38,472 nucleotides of DNA, taken from NCBI GenBank assembly GCA_021323535.1, contig JAJONO010000045.1, positions 1-38,472 of the forward strand, written 5' to 3'. This document shows positions 30,574-33,590 of this stretch, piece after piece (position 1 is the first letter of the stretch; every line of letters starts with the position of its first letter). The stretch comes from Bacteroidota bacterium. GTDB taxonomy: Bacteria; Bacteroidota; Bacteroidia; B-17B0; Aurantibacillaceae. The position numbers were made by a program, and so were the translations under genes. The notes under the pieces were generated by a model that was not told the DNA's origin, did not search any database, and saw nothing but the letters and a program-made list of their open reading frames with translations.

Positions 30574-30636
30574 CAATACTCCAAATTACCCACTCAATAC
30601 TTCAAATCACTTACTCAATACTCCAAATTAACGCTT
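30574..30636 (-). repeat. 21-bp tandem repeat, three copies, containing the hom stop codon
   Basis: Copies start at 30574, 30595 and 30616 on the plus strand and share CAATACTYCAAATY. The period is exactly seven codons. In the hom frame the copies read N-L-E-Y-stop, D-L-K-Y-stop and N-L-E-Y-W, so the first copy supplies the end of hom and the others lie in its 3' untranslated region. Confidence 0.75.
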
Positions 30637-31862
30637 TCGAATACGCTTTCGTCTAATCCCTGTTTAGCGGCTTCATTCTCATCTCCCACCTCCGATACAA
30701 AGAGGCGGTTCTTAAGGATATAGTCCTTCTGTTTTAACAAACTTTTAACATTAACAAGAGCCACTACATAATTATAGCTCTCGCCTTTGTATTGTTCAAA
30801 TATGTGCTGCGTTTCAAGTGCCTGAAGATCCACCACCGAATTGTAACGAATGTAAGCTTTAATGAATACATCATTGGTGATGTTGTTGGCTTGAGATTGC
30901 TTCAATTTTTTAAAGGCGTATTTATAATCGTAAGACAATGCAGAGATGTCGGAAAGCACGGCCGCACCGGTTGGGTGACCGCCAGCGCCTTTTCCTTTGA
31001 GAAATTGTTCGCCGCTGAATTCTCCTTCTACAATGACGCCGTTAAACTCATTGTCTACAAAATATAAAGGATTTTCCTGTTTAATGAACTTTGGTAAAAC
31101 AAAAATGGAGATCTTGTTTTTGTTCTGCCGGATAGTTGGAACCAGTTTTATTTTATAACCTTTTTCAGAAGCGTATTTAATATCATTGTCATCTAAAGTA
31201 GTAATCCCAATATTTAAAACCTCTTCAGGTTTTGCAAACACTCCAAAAGAATGAAGCGCGAGAATGATGGCTTTGTATTTGGGATCAAATCCTTCCACGT
31301 CGCTCGTTGGATCACTTTCAGCAAAACCTTTTTCCTGTGCCTGTTTTAATGCCGAAGCGTAACTGAGTTTTTCGGAAATGGTTTTGGTAAGAATGTAATT
31401 GGTGGTACCGTTGAAAATCCCCGAAATTTTATTCAGTTGTTCGTTGTCGAAATATTCTTCAAGTGTTCTTATGATAGGAATGCTACCGCAAACACTGGCT
31501 TCGTACAATAGCGACACGTTATGTTCTTCCTGCAATTGCTGTAATTCTTTAAGATGCGTAGCTACCAGTTTTTTGTTGGCTGTTACTACATGTTTACCTT
31601 TTCTGATGGCGTACTTCACAATTTCGAAAGCTTCATCGGCGTCGTCGATCAATTCTACAATGACGTTGATCTCCGGATTATCTAAGATTTCGTATTTATC
31701 AAATGTGAAAATACTTTTGTCGAGTGTTCTTGGTTTGTTTTTGTCTTTTACCGCAATTTTTGTAATGTTTGCCGTGAAGCCTTTACTGTTATTGAGCACG
31801 TGATACAAACCTTGTCCCACGCAGCCAAAACCGAATAATCCTATATTTAATTTTTTTGCCAT
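30615..31862 (-). CDS. hom: Homoserine dehydrogenase
   Basis: Reduces aspartate semialdehyde to homoserine, the branch point to threonine and methionine. The 415-residue chain has the NAD(P) motif GLFGFGCVGQG (8-18), the VTANKKLVA segment, the catalytic region GIFNGTTNYILT and GFAESDPTSDVEGFDPKYKA, and GKGAGGHPTGAAVLSD. The C-terminal 80 residues have an ACT-like alternation (YIRYNSVVD, YNYVVALVNVKSLL) and may be a regulatory remnant. It is monofunctional, with no aspartokinase part. It lies 5 bases after metX, which fits homoserine being drawn into methionine synthesis under SAM control. Its last codons and stop are part of a 21-bp tandem repeat. Confidence 0.93.
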   Translation of the reverse strand: MAKKLNIGLFGFGCVGQGLYHVLNNSKGFTANITKIAVKDKNKPRTLDKSIFTFDKYEILDNPEINVIVELIDDADEAFEIVKYAIRKGKHVVTANKKLVATHLKELQQLQEEHNVSLLYEASVCGSIPIIRTLEEYFDNEQLNKISGIFNGTTNYILTKTISEKLSYASALKQAQEKGFAESDPTSDVEGFDPKYKAIILALHSFGVFAKPEEVLNIGITTLDDNDIKYASEKGYKIKLVPTIRQNKNKISIFVLPKFIKQENPLYFVDNEFNGVIVEGEFSGEQFLKGKGAGGHPTGAAVLSDISALSYDYKYAFKKLKQSQANNITNDVFIKAYIRYNSVVDLQALETQHIFEQYKGESYNYVVALVNVKSLLKQKDYILKNRLFVSEVGDENEAAKQGLDESVFESVNLEY

Positions 31863-31867
31863 ACTGT

Positions 31868-32932
31868 TTAATTTAAAAAGCTTAACGCTAAGTTTTGATT
31901 GATTGTTGTTTCTTTTTTGTCTGATAAAAAATCACGAATGATCTTTGTGAGTTGTTGGGTCTCTATTAAAAAACCATCGTGACCATAGAACGAGTCTATT
32001 TGTTTGTATTTACTTTTCTTAATGTGTTTCGCAATGAATTCCTGCTCCTGCGGTGGGAACAACAGATCGCTGCTGATGCTGATCACCAGTGTTTTTGCGG
32101 TAATAGAGCTTAAAGCTTTTTCAATAGAAACCCTTCCTCTTCCAACATTGTGCGAATCCATTGCTTTTGAAAGTGTGATGTACGAATAAGCATTAAAACG
32201 GTTCACGAGTTTTTGTCCCTGGTAACGCTGATAACCTGCCGAATTAAAATCATCTAATTTTTCATCATGTTTTTCTTTCTGTGTTTCATTGTAAGTCTGG
32301 TAATTTCTATAGCTTAATAAAGCAATGCTTCTTGCTGCCGATAATCCTTTTTGTCCGCCATCTTCCGTATTCGAATAATACGTACGATCAGCTTTAATGG
32401 CTAAACGCTGACTTTCATTTAACGCGATTCCCCATGGAGAATGTTTTGCGTTAGTGGCAATTACAATAGTGTTGTTGAATAATTCAGGCTGAAGGATGTT
32501 CCATTCCAGCACCTGTTGCGCGCCCTGCGAACCTCCGATGATGGTATTTATTTTTTCAATTCCAAGATGTGTTCTCAGCAAATTGTGGGCCTTTACCATA
32601 TCGCGGATGGTGACGTTCGGAAAATAACTGAACCATTTTTGCTTCGTGAATTTATTTTCGGTAAGCGGGCCCGTGGTGCCGTAACATGAACCAAGATTAT
32701 TAGCGCACACAATGTAATGATCTTGTGGATTAAACAGATCATTGTCGCCGAATAAACCCGGCCACCATTCGGTAACGTTACTATTAGCGGTTAGAGCGTG
32801 ACATACCCAGATCACATTGTCTTTGTTTTTGTTGAGCGTGCCAAACGTATGGTATGCAATTTCGAGTGATGGTAATACATCTCCTCCTTCTAAAGGAAAA
32901 GCATGATCGTATTTAAAAACCTGGTGTGACAT
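31868..32932 (-). CDS. metX: Homoserine O-acetyltransferase (MetX family)
   Basis: Activates homoserine for methionine synthesis. The alpha/beta-hydrolase chain of 354 residues shows the oxyanion segment VCHALTANSNV, GSCYGTTGP, the nucleophile Ser S135 in GGSQGAQQ (where GGSMGGMQ is usual), the acid Asp in SISSDLLFPP and the His in GHDGFLIE. MetX homologues may use acetyl- or succinyl-CoA, and I cannot decide which from the sequence. The gene follows a 76-residue unknown gene after 1 base and precedes hom by 5 bases; the operon lies behind a SAM-I riboswitch. MetY or MetB, the next enzyme of the pathway, is not in the window. Confidence 0.93.
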   Translation of the reverse strand: MSHQVFKYDHAFPLEGGDVLPSLEIAYHTFGTLNKNKDNVIWVCHALTANSNVTEWWPGLFGDNDLFNPQDHYIVCANNLGSCYGTTGPLTENKFTKQKWFSYFPNVTIRDMVKAHNLLRTHLGIEKINTIIGGSQGAQQVLEWNILQPELFNNTIVIATNAKHSPWGIALNESQRLAIKADRTYYSNTEDGGQKGLSAARSIALLSYRNYQTYNETQKEKHDEKLDDFNSAGYQRYQGQKLVNRFNAYSYITLSKAMDSHNVGRGRVSIEKALSSITAKTLVISISSDLLFPPQEQEFIAKHIKKSKYKQIDSFYGHDGFLIETQQLTKIIRDFLSDKKETTINQNLALSFLN

Positions 32933-33164: not shown

Positions 33165-33222
33165 TTGTTTAAATTTTAGGTCTTCCGACAATTAATTGAT
33201 TTGATTTTTGATTTTCATATCG

Positions 33223-33263
33223 GCCCGGATTAAATCAAGGGCAAGTGAAAAATCTGAACGGGC
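33223..33263 (-). promoter_or_regulatory. Second potential RNA stem downstream of the leader peptide
   Basis: GCCCG (33223-33227) and CGGGC (33259-33263) could pair across a 31-base loop, and TAATCC (minus strand, 33232-33227) at its base can also pair with the GGATTA of the hairpin at 33285-33304. This makes two mutually exclusive folds possible. No U-tract follows, so any effect would more likely be on translation or Rho access than on intrinsic termination. Confidence 0.3.
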
Positions 33264-33284
33264 TTATGCCTCGTTTCTAAACAA

Positions 33285-33304
33285 TAATCCTGAAGTAAGG
33301 ATTA
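33285..33304 (-). promoter_or_regulatory. Hairpin overlapping the leader peptide stop codon
   Basis: On the minus strand TAATCCT-TACTTC-AGGATTA forms a 7-bp stem with a 6-base loop. The stop codon TAA (33304-33302) is the first part of the stem, so a ribosome stalled in the preceding Cys codons would block the hairpin. Confidence 0.5.
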
Positions 33305-33442
33305 GCACATACAGCAGCAACACATTCGTCCGTGCAGAAGTAAACTCTGCAGAGTATGTATACTGTGATGTACAATGGAATGATGGAACCCTCCGAAGAT
33401 TGACGTGTTTGTAGCTTGTTTTTGAAATTGTGCGTTTTTCAT
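33302..33442 (-). CDS. Cys/Met-rich candidate leader peptide, 46 residues
   Basis: The frame starts at ATG 33442, 11 bases beyond the closing stem of the SAM-I riboswitch, after the A-rich stretch AGTAAAAAAA. It encodes MKNAQFQKQATNTSIFGG at the N-terminus, a His-rich middle (four HH/H-S-I motifs), LQSLLLHGR and then M-C-C-C-C-M-C before TAA. Five cysteines and two methionines in the last seven codons are far from expectation and point to a translation-sensing leader for sulfur amino acids. No signal peptide or known domain is seen. It is not in frame with, nor overlapping, the first structural gene (start 33164). A tiny metal-binding protein is the alternative. Confidence 0.6.
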   Translation of the reverse strand: MKNAQFQKQATNTSIFGGFHHSIVHHSIHTLQSLLLHGRMCCCCMC

Positions 33443-33453
33443 TTTTTTTACTT

Positions 33454-33590
33454 TTAATTTATCTTTCCTCTTACTCTCATCAGAGGCAGGATTTAGCACC
33501 GGTTTTCCAATTCTTCCTTTCGGAAGGACTTCTAGTTGGTTGCCTGCGGGTCAACGAGCCTATTCTCTCGCCGCATCTTGATAAATTAAC
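33454..33590 (-). ncRNA. SAM-I riboswitch (S-box leader)
   Basis: On the minus strand the conserved S-box elements appear in order: P1 5' strand TTAATTTATC, then AAGA, a P2 helix TGCGG/CCGCA with inner CGAG/CTCG and a kink-turn-like internal loop, GCAGGCAACC, a P3 hairpin with CTTCC-GAAA-GGAAG inside CCAA/TTGG, then CCGGTGCTAAATCCTGCC and CTGATGAGAG, and the P1 3' strand GATAAATTAA (10 perfect pairs with the 5' strand). It precedes metX and hom, the expected targets. No intrinsic terminator lies between P1 and the leader ATG, so control of translation of the leader peptide, or of events further downstream, is more likely than classic termination. Confidence 0.92.

Follow-up and report, generated by a model that had tools for sequence, protein, structure and literature searches.

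A SAM-I riboswitch followed by a cysteine- and methionine-rich leader peptide before metX and hom in Bacteroidota: a candidate two-stage sulfur gate

Organization of the locus

The window, by which is meant the whole stretch of 38,472 nucleotides analyzed here, carries on its minus strand a SAM-I riboswitch, a short leader frame, a small gene, metX and hom. In the direction of transcription, the parts are the following:

33456-33587, minus strand: SAM-I riboswitch aptamer (RF00162), cmscan score of 67.4 bits (gathering score 44.4), model positions 1-108
33443-33463, minus strand: 3' strand of P1 (GATAAATT) and A-rich linker, where translation of the leader presumably initiates; closure of P1 leaves it partly paired
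33302-33442, minus strand: leader peptide ORF of 46 aa with ATG start and TAA stop, from translation, kept in the family
33305-33325, minus strand: sensor tail M-C-C-C-C-M-C, from translation, with a pattern match at 33311-33325
33285-33304, minus strand: predicted hairpin starting at the leader stop codon (TAATCCT/AGGATTA), from the minimum free energy (MFE) fold, not called as a terminator
33165-33301, minus strand: structured spacer from the leader to the next gene, z of -2.4 for the 118 nt from the stop codon
32934-33164, minus strand: small gene of 76 aa, conserved between the leader and metX/metY in 41/48 leader loci
31868-32932, minus strand: metX, homoserine O-acetyltransferase (TIGR01392, E 5.8e-105, under its curated cut-off; Abhydrolase_1)
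30615-31862, minus strand: hom, homoserine dehydrogenase (PF00742, 182.1 bits)

RF00162 is the sole Rfam family found above its cut-off in the window by cmscan, and the aptamer, scoring over the curated cut-off, belongs to this family in sequence and structure. The initial annotation had described a 46-codon frame ending in RMCCCCMC and a stop, with seven sulfur amino-acid codons (M-C-C-C-C-M-C) directly before termination. Translation confirms both features, as window:33302-33442:- reads MKNAQFQKQATNTSIFGGFHHSIVHHSIHTLQSLLLHGRMCCCCMC*. The strand, which had been left unstated, is the minus strand, and translation of the plus strand is interrupted by stops. The frame had been placed 11 bases past the riboswitch, a distance corrected here to 13 nt between the last position of the model and the ATG; no terminator-like site was found between the two, in agreement with the earlier description. 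Taken alone, the hairpin at the leader stop codon reaches a z of -0.66 only in the window sequence. Further downstream, the metX ATG lies 1 nt past the stop of the small gene, and hom is apparently the final gene of the operon since the first ORF of 120 aa or more that follows it stands on the plus strand.

The small gene, on which the initial annotation is silent, separates the leader from metX or metY in 41 of the 48 leader loci defined below and encodes 68-81 aa, a set from which L060 was dropped as a spurious ORF in another frame and in which N-terminal extensions were trimmed in L023 and L025. The window copy has no Pfam or NCBIfam match at E 0.001, and the AlphaFold model of the 76-aa protein is weak (mean pLDDT 67, pTM 0.49, two helices). 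Among 16 aligned copies, the invariant residues are L, GG, R, N, E and a C-terminal N. The distance from its stop to the next gene ranges from 1 to 234 nt over 40 loci and is at most 23 nt in 25 of them. The window copy contains no Cys and no internal Met. Over the 41 copies, the 3085 residues following Met1 include 0 Cys and 1 Met versus about 50 and 64 expected, the background used here and for the leaders being the window ORFs of at least 200 aa, some spurious frames included. The neighboring proteins of the window are also poor in sulfur: the 415 aa of Hom include two Cys and no internal Met, and the 354 aa of MetX include three Cys and two internal Met. The operon looks as if it were built for translation during sulfur starvation.

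Elsewhere in the window genome, metY-like matches are fragmented (G000:C59 and C74, L300-L302), one standing at a contig end and one containing an internal stop, which may reflect the draft assembly or decay.

Conservation and distribution of the riboswitch-leader pair

The family search covered 87 genomes, of which 77 gave a match, and yielded 130 SAM-I loci (rows transcribed by hand from the search output, the total being counted by program) that were classed by their first downstream gene using tblastn. A leader was scored when an ATG within 62 nt opened a frame with at least four Cys among its last 15 residues, a threshold chosen after initial examples had been viewed. With this rule, a poly-Cys frame follows 47 of the 50 metX/metY riboswitches versus none of the 80 others, these counts not representing independent events because the family loci share descent. 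By class, the frame is present in 35/38 metX and 12/12 metY loci, and in 0/58 metH, 0/14 methyltransferase, 0/4 CGS-like and 0/4 unclassified loci. The metH, metY and CGS-like classes each depend on one reference checked against NCBIfam, the CGS-like reference matching cystathionine gamma-lyase/synthase models under their cut-offs, whereas the methyltransferase class is named by resemblance alone, with no NCBIfam match at 1e-20. The metH riboswitches, devoid of leader in the same genomes, provide an internal control. Conservation of a Cys-rich frame after SAM-I riboswitches of related genomes, on which the initial annotation had made its reading depend, is thus found at the metX/metY loci of the family.

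Among the three metX exceptions, L239 has a leader with three Cys and the terminal sequence MYMWCCSMC; L017 reads N, while L045 appears degenerate. Adding L239, which falls under the four-Cys threshold, to the 47 loci gives the set of 48 leaders used hereafter, with L017 and L045 excluded. The Met-Cys4 pattern (ATGTGYTGYTGYTGY) occurs 67 times in the 87 genomes versus 12 times for the reversed pattern; out of 30 Met-Cys4 loci inspected, 13 correspond to leaders preceded by a SAM motif, and the other 17 are located elsewhere. Judged at sequence level, the leader is more than a chance frame: it is real, conserved and, within the family, specific to metX/metY riboswitches.

The 14 family loci in which a SAM-I precedes a putative methyltransferase gene often have metH behind it. 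The second SAM-I of the window genome (L002, G000:C13:91425-91592, minus strand) is found before a methyltransferase-resembling gene and has no leader.

The 48 leaders are 29-54 aa long, with a variable N-terminal part and a conserved tail. In the last 15 residues, Cys accounts for 43.5% and Met for 20.3%, versus 0.6% and 0.3% in the remainder, and as both residues are enriched, the tail would read Met as well as Cys. The final residue is Cys in 44/48 leaders, and the final pair is Met-Cys in 37/48. The N-terminal parts are poor in both residues, with 3 Met and 7 Cys for 24 and 19 expected. Tail Cys codons are divided into 158 TGC and 155 TGT, a free wobble as expected for coding. These leaders display the traits of leader-peptide attenuators, namely a short ORF in which codons for the pathway amino acid form a run near the end, located just upstream of pathway genes (metX and metY, and cysH in the loci described below). 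A hairpin formed by the Cys codons and acting as an RNA signal was considered and rejected, its stability over synonymous recoding being weak (mean z of -0.7, 23/48 below -1).

The leader ATG is located 12-14 nt past the aptamer in 39 of the 48 loci, the full range being 3-15 nt. The sequence ATAAATTAAA, covering the 3' strand of P1 and the linker, is conserved at 92-100% per position in the 48 metX/metY-class loci, and the metH-class consensus at the same region is ATAAGTCGG. According to the rule stated in the survey passage of PMC2258182, a start at most 15 nt from the aptamer core points to direct translational control of the first ORF. As the leader starts within this distance, it would be the ORF concerned, so SAM itself would control the leader start. 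Shine-Dalgarno sequences are naturally absent in Bacteroidota, and in Flavobacterium johnsoniae, initiation is favored by a weakly paired region from -20 to +20 and by A at -12/-13, -6 and -3, as reported in the relevant part of PMC6847099. Closure of P1 would hide the nucleotides up to about -14 of the leader AUG.

Beyond the family, a scan of GTDB species genomes for CCCCMC followed by a stop returned 73 stretches. Of these, 31 are preceded by a SAM-I core motif at a distance of at most 350 nt, all in records with Bacteroidota in the title, and 18 of the 31 leaders recur identically among the 48 of the family. When 18 loci chosen outside the family set were submitted to cmscan, 15 had a SAM-I over the gathering score beside the leader, with an aptamer-leader spacing of 4-10 nt. 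The carriers are Solitalea agri, Mucilaginibacter rivuli, Botryobacter ruber, Parachryseolinea silvisoli, seven Pontibacter records (two sharing one leader), two Crocinitomicaceae MAGs, one Flavobacteriales MAG and one Bacteroidales MAG. Among the lineages looked up, the riboswitch-leader pair is present in Cytophagales, Sphingobacteriales and Flavobacteriales. The two Pontibacter tested, P. oryzae and P. chinhatensis, have cysH as the next gene; Botryobacter carries cysD and cysN behind the leader. These three genes are expected targets of Cys limitation.

Sulfate-reduction genes were thus seen behind a SAM-I and a poly-Cys leader at L140 and L190 (CysH) and at L159 (CysD and CysN), as well as at L144, L188 and L189, where they were judged by N-terminal likeness alone. 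Other poly-Cys leaders precede proteins of 326-482 aa (L149, L295, L296 and L169, the last with two SAM-I); the two such proteins tested, those of L149 and L169, have no NCBIfam match.

The two sensors are not always found in this close arrangement. No SAM-I was detected, even at E 1, in the DNA fetched around the leaders of L165 (a Chitinophaga pinensis MAG) and L136. The leader can thus stand alone, the two sensors being separable modules. At both loci, it precedes metY-metX-hom, metY and metX being confirmed in L165. At L088, a SAM-I is followed by a terminator-like GC hairpin with a T-run, then by a poly-Cys leader 146 nt past the aptamer and by metY. L088 is also the only one of 50 SAM-I loci from a phylum sample, mostly the best-scoring ones, to possess a poly-Cys leader, and universality was accordingly rejected; L111 passes a loose three-Cys filter but was excluded for its scattered Cys in a TTG frame. 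Out of 395 class genomes, 14 contain a CCCMC-stop motif, which in 7 of them is preceded by a SAM motif at no more than 450 nt. From these scans, the pair appears wide but patchy in Bacteroidota, far from universal.

A proposed gate and its rivals

The leader tail of Cys and Met codons, placed right after a SAM-sensing RNA, suggests that two sulfur signals may be read in series. The two-input interpretation of the initial annotation is partly supported by these sequence comparisons, which establish the parts of such a gate with their order, conservation, spacing and codon make-up. We favor, with an assurance only somewhat above even, a two-stage sulfur gate on metX-hom, in which SAM would decide whether the leader is translated, and a ribosome stalled at its Cys or Met codons would switch the operon on. 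In the first stage, SAM would close the A/U-rich P1, the 3' strand of which extends into the A-rich stretch preceding the leader AUG, and the leader would stay untranslated; at low SAM, P1 would open and the leader would be translated. In the second stage, a shortage of Cys-tRNA (or Met-tRNA) would stall the ribosome in the last 15 codons or so, the ribosome otherwise running off. The next gene, encoding the 76-aa protein, would be expressed in the stalled state only, the operon being off either without a ribosome (high SAM) or with a finished one (ample Cys and Met). The net logic would be ON for SAM low AND (Cys or Met scarce). We infer the control of the leader by SAM, the stalling, the sign of its effect and the coupling step from the arrangement of the parts. 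The presence of the leader before cysH fits a stall that means ON. A leader sensing Cys only would keep metX off in Cys-rich, Met-poor cells and deprive them of the means to produce O-acetylhomoserine, an objection that the Met codons of the tail would answer.

In part of the family, the off state would probably be set by pairing of leader codons near the Cys run with the start region of the next gene. Three states were modeled at 41 loci using assumed masks of about 30 nt: the next start region is unpaired at a mean of 0.588 in the free transcript, 0.682 with a ribosome stalled on the first tail Cys and 0.595 with a ribosome at the stop. From stop to stall, accessibility rises by more than 0.05 in 22/41 loci and falls by as much in one. 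As shuffling the spacer leaves the mean stall effect on start accessibility unchanged (0.082 versus 0.087), this effect stems from the leader itself, and the spacer hairpins were rejected as the switch; that the stop-proximal hairpin disappears once a ribosome is placed at the stop is a built-in consequence of the mask.

The search for contiguous helices paired the leader segment spanning -45 to +15 relative to the first tail Cys with the -28 to +14 region of the next gene. Over the 41 loci, the best helix reaches -12.7 kcal/mol versus -9.5 for shuffles and -10.2 for swapped partners, a significance that is optimistic because this was the third look at one question. At most two of 40 shuffles are as good in 21/41 loci, spanning 13 different sequence pairs such as TTCATGATG/CATCATGAA, TTCATGATGATGG/CCATCATCATGAA, CTTTTTCATG/CATGAAAAAG, GTTTTTGCATGT/ACATGCAAAAAT and CCATCTGTTG/TAACAGATGG. 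When windows along the transcript are compared, the signal is strongest at the start codon (mean z of -1.83; 16/41 loci for about 3 expected), with 10/41 loci in the overlapping window at -20 and 1 to 6 in every other window. ATG-bearing controls shrink the excess, with -12.7 for the native start, -11.1 for metH/methyltransferase starts and -10.7 for the second gene. Still, 10/41 loci beat 95% of 71 such controls, and the native start exceeds that of the second gene in 29/40.

The signal is restricted to contiguous helices that involve the leader portion surrounding the first Cys codons. Gapped duplexes between the leader and the start were rejected (mean z of -0.5, 5/48 below -2), as were those limited to the last 12 codons, for which native starts give -12.1, swapped ones -11.9 and metH/methyltransferase starts do better at -15.2. 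When the stretch is extended to +300, only 14/41 loci have their top-ranking helix in contact with the start region. Among the 21 loci with a good helix, five have its leader strand 16-40 nt ahead of the first Cys, which may be too far for a single stalled ribosome to cover. At the window locus, the helix is at chance level (17/40 shuffles as good, or 93/200 when the entire leader is used), the native start region is equaled by 87% of the control ones, and stalling brings no opening of the next start (unpaired at 0.46 free, 0.47 stalled and 0.52 at the stop). The helix is also absent in the 7/7 family loci without the small gene, and none of the 11 loci from the outside set has at most two of 40 shuffles as good. 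Leader/start pairing is a likely coupling step for part of the family, as judged from these predicted helices. An entirely translational AND gate, in which the stalled ribosome would unmask the next start by occupying the pairing leader codons and the sensor peptide would be the sole directly controlled ORF, is put forward more tentatively, and we rather doubt it in this complete form.

The serious rival is transcriptional control, intrinsic or by Rho, with the same two inputs: a stalled ribosome would prevent a terminator or shield the spacer from Rho, whereas behind an untranslated or finished leader, the polymerase would stop before metX. We regard it as quite possible, although short of even. 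Indeed, the spacers are strongly structured, with a mean z of -2.2 against shuffles for the 118 nt after the leader stop and 42/48 loci below -1, and the stop-proximal hairpin covaries, both-sided changes affecting 4 of its 8 pairs over 19 relatives. Terminator-like sites, mostly made of the second spacer hairpin (CCTTGG..CCAAGG) and a short T-rich stretch, occur in 9/48 family spacers for 1.2 expected from shuffles under the rule used for the window. These nine spacers make transcriptional coupling possible in some relatives, and they led us to weight this rival up and the translational gate down. However, the T-runs are short, 39/48 spacers have no such site, and none was found on the minus strand of the window from the riboswitch to metX. 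For Rho, C outnumbers G in 47/48 leader loci when the 120 nt behind the leader are counted and in 40/48 for 80 nt, versus 38/76 control loci for the latter length, but such an excess is weak evidence for Rho sites. Rho has been proposed for actinobacterial poly-Cys leaders lacking a terminator, in the account that PMC1262725 gives of them.

The spacer hairpins recur in the window (33165-33304, minus strand) and in relatives as a stop-proximal, a GC-rich second and a third hairpin, with a further one shortly before the small gene at some loci. They have no role in the proposed gate model, and the second has the look of a weak terminator in some relatives.

An unlikely alternative holds that the leader senses Cys and Met while the SAM-I acts independently, through transcript stability or a platform of its own, the inputs being added rather than read in series. 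It would account for the leaders of L165 and L136 without a detectable SAM-I and for L088, where the riboswitch has its own terminator-like hairpin 146 nt ahead of the leader and metY, but the spacing fixed at 12-14 nt in most of the family, and at 4-10 nt in 15 other loci, leaves no room for a separate platform. Finally, a Cys-rich peptide that is functional in itself (metal- or redox-binding), its small ORF standing by chance after a riboswitch, is very improbable: C-terminal Cys runs could bind metals, but the N-terminal sequence varies, the length ranges over 29-54 aa, the Cys run abuts the stop and the occurrence follows metX/metY/cysH operons, never metH, all of which are traits of leader peptides.

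Related systems and significance

The window aptamer resembles other SAM-I (S-box) elements of RF00162 in its score over the gathering threshold and in its sulfur-gene context. Unlike the usual SAM-I, the first ORF is here a leader peptide instead of a metabolic gene, starting 13 nt from P1 with no terminator platform. The nearest system in logic is the tandem of SAM-I and T box(Met) that precedes metX and metY, with a predicted NOT A AND B logic as given in the corresponding section of PMC9481103. Both arrangements place two serial sensors before the same genes, SAM being read first and aminoacyl-tRNA second, but the tandem reads uncharged tRNA by the T box RNA, whereas ribosome stalling on a leader ORF is proposed here. 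Indeed, no T box scores over its Rfam cut-off in the window, and the main text of PMC9481103 contains neither "leader peptide" nor "uORF".

The Salmonella mgtA leader responds to Mg2+ and proline, its ORF lying within the sensing RNA, and mgtCBR reportedly carries tandem attenuators. Both leaders likewise join a small-molecule or ion signal to codon-specific stalling, with unrelated RNA, signals and genes. Mycobacterial poly-Cys leaders, for their part, are leaderless. The actinobacterial poly-Cys leaders described in PMC1262725 precede cys genes in Mycobacterium and P. acnes and cbs in B. longum, the Mycobacterium ones having no conserved terminator in that description. They share with the present leaders a run of Cys codons near the stop and a position before Cys-pathway genes, a likeness of design, but belong to a different phylum, and no riboswitch appears in the passages of PMC1262725 that deal with them. 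In Rhodobacterales, the uORFC-8-2 motif upstream of cysS is also a uORF with Cys codons, located inside a stem, for which attenuation has been proposed; as presented in the motif's description in PMC8632094, it differs by its two Cys codons and its intrinsic terminator with a U-run, no riboswitch being mentioned there.

Within Bacteroidota, leader-peptide attenuation upstream of amino-acid operons is evoked in general terms for Flavobacterium psychrophilum in a passage of PMC9723704, and possible leader sORFs are indicated for Bacteroides thetaiotaomicron in a passage of PMC7366714. The initial annotation had considered tandem control by a riboswitch and a leader peptide not to be a standard description, and a SAM-I riboswitch followed by a Cys leader was indeed not found described in the open-licence PMC literature searched. 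What is new here is the combination of a riboswitch with a leader-peptide attenuator, each kind being already known.

To our knowledge, little is known of riboswitch control of genes in Bacteroidota. If the proposed gate is true, it would offer a simple answer for SAM-I in this phylum, the switch acting on the start of a leader ORF, and ribosome stalling would join the ways of building riboswitch logic gates. As short ORFs behind riboswitches are easily overlooked by gene calling, other riboswitch classes may hide the same design. The gate would also explain why metX/metY switches differ from metH switches within the same genomes. Such an AND gate would suit bacteria without Shine-Dalgarno sequences and would be spread over several Bacteroidota orders. 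It would link SAM, methionine and cysteine status at the point where sulfur enters homocysteine, and the Cys- and Met-free protein of the next gene could then be made in sulfur starvation.
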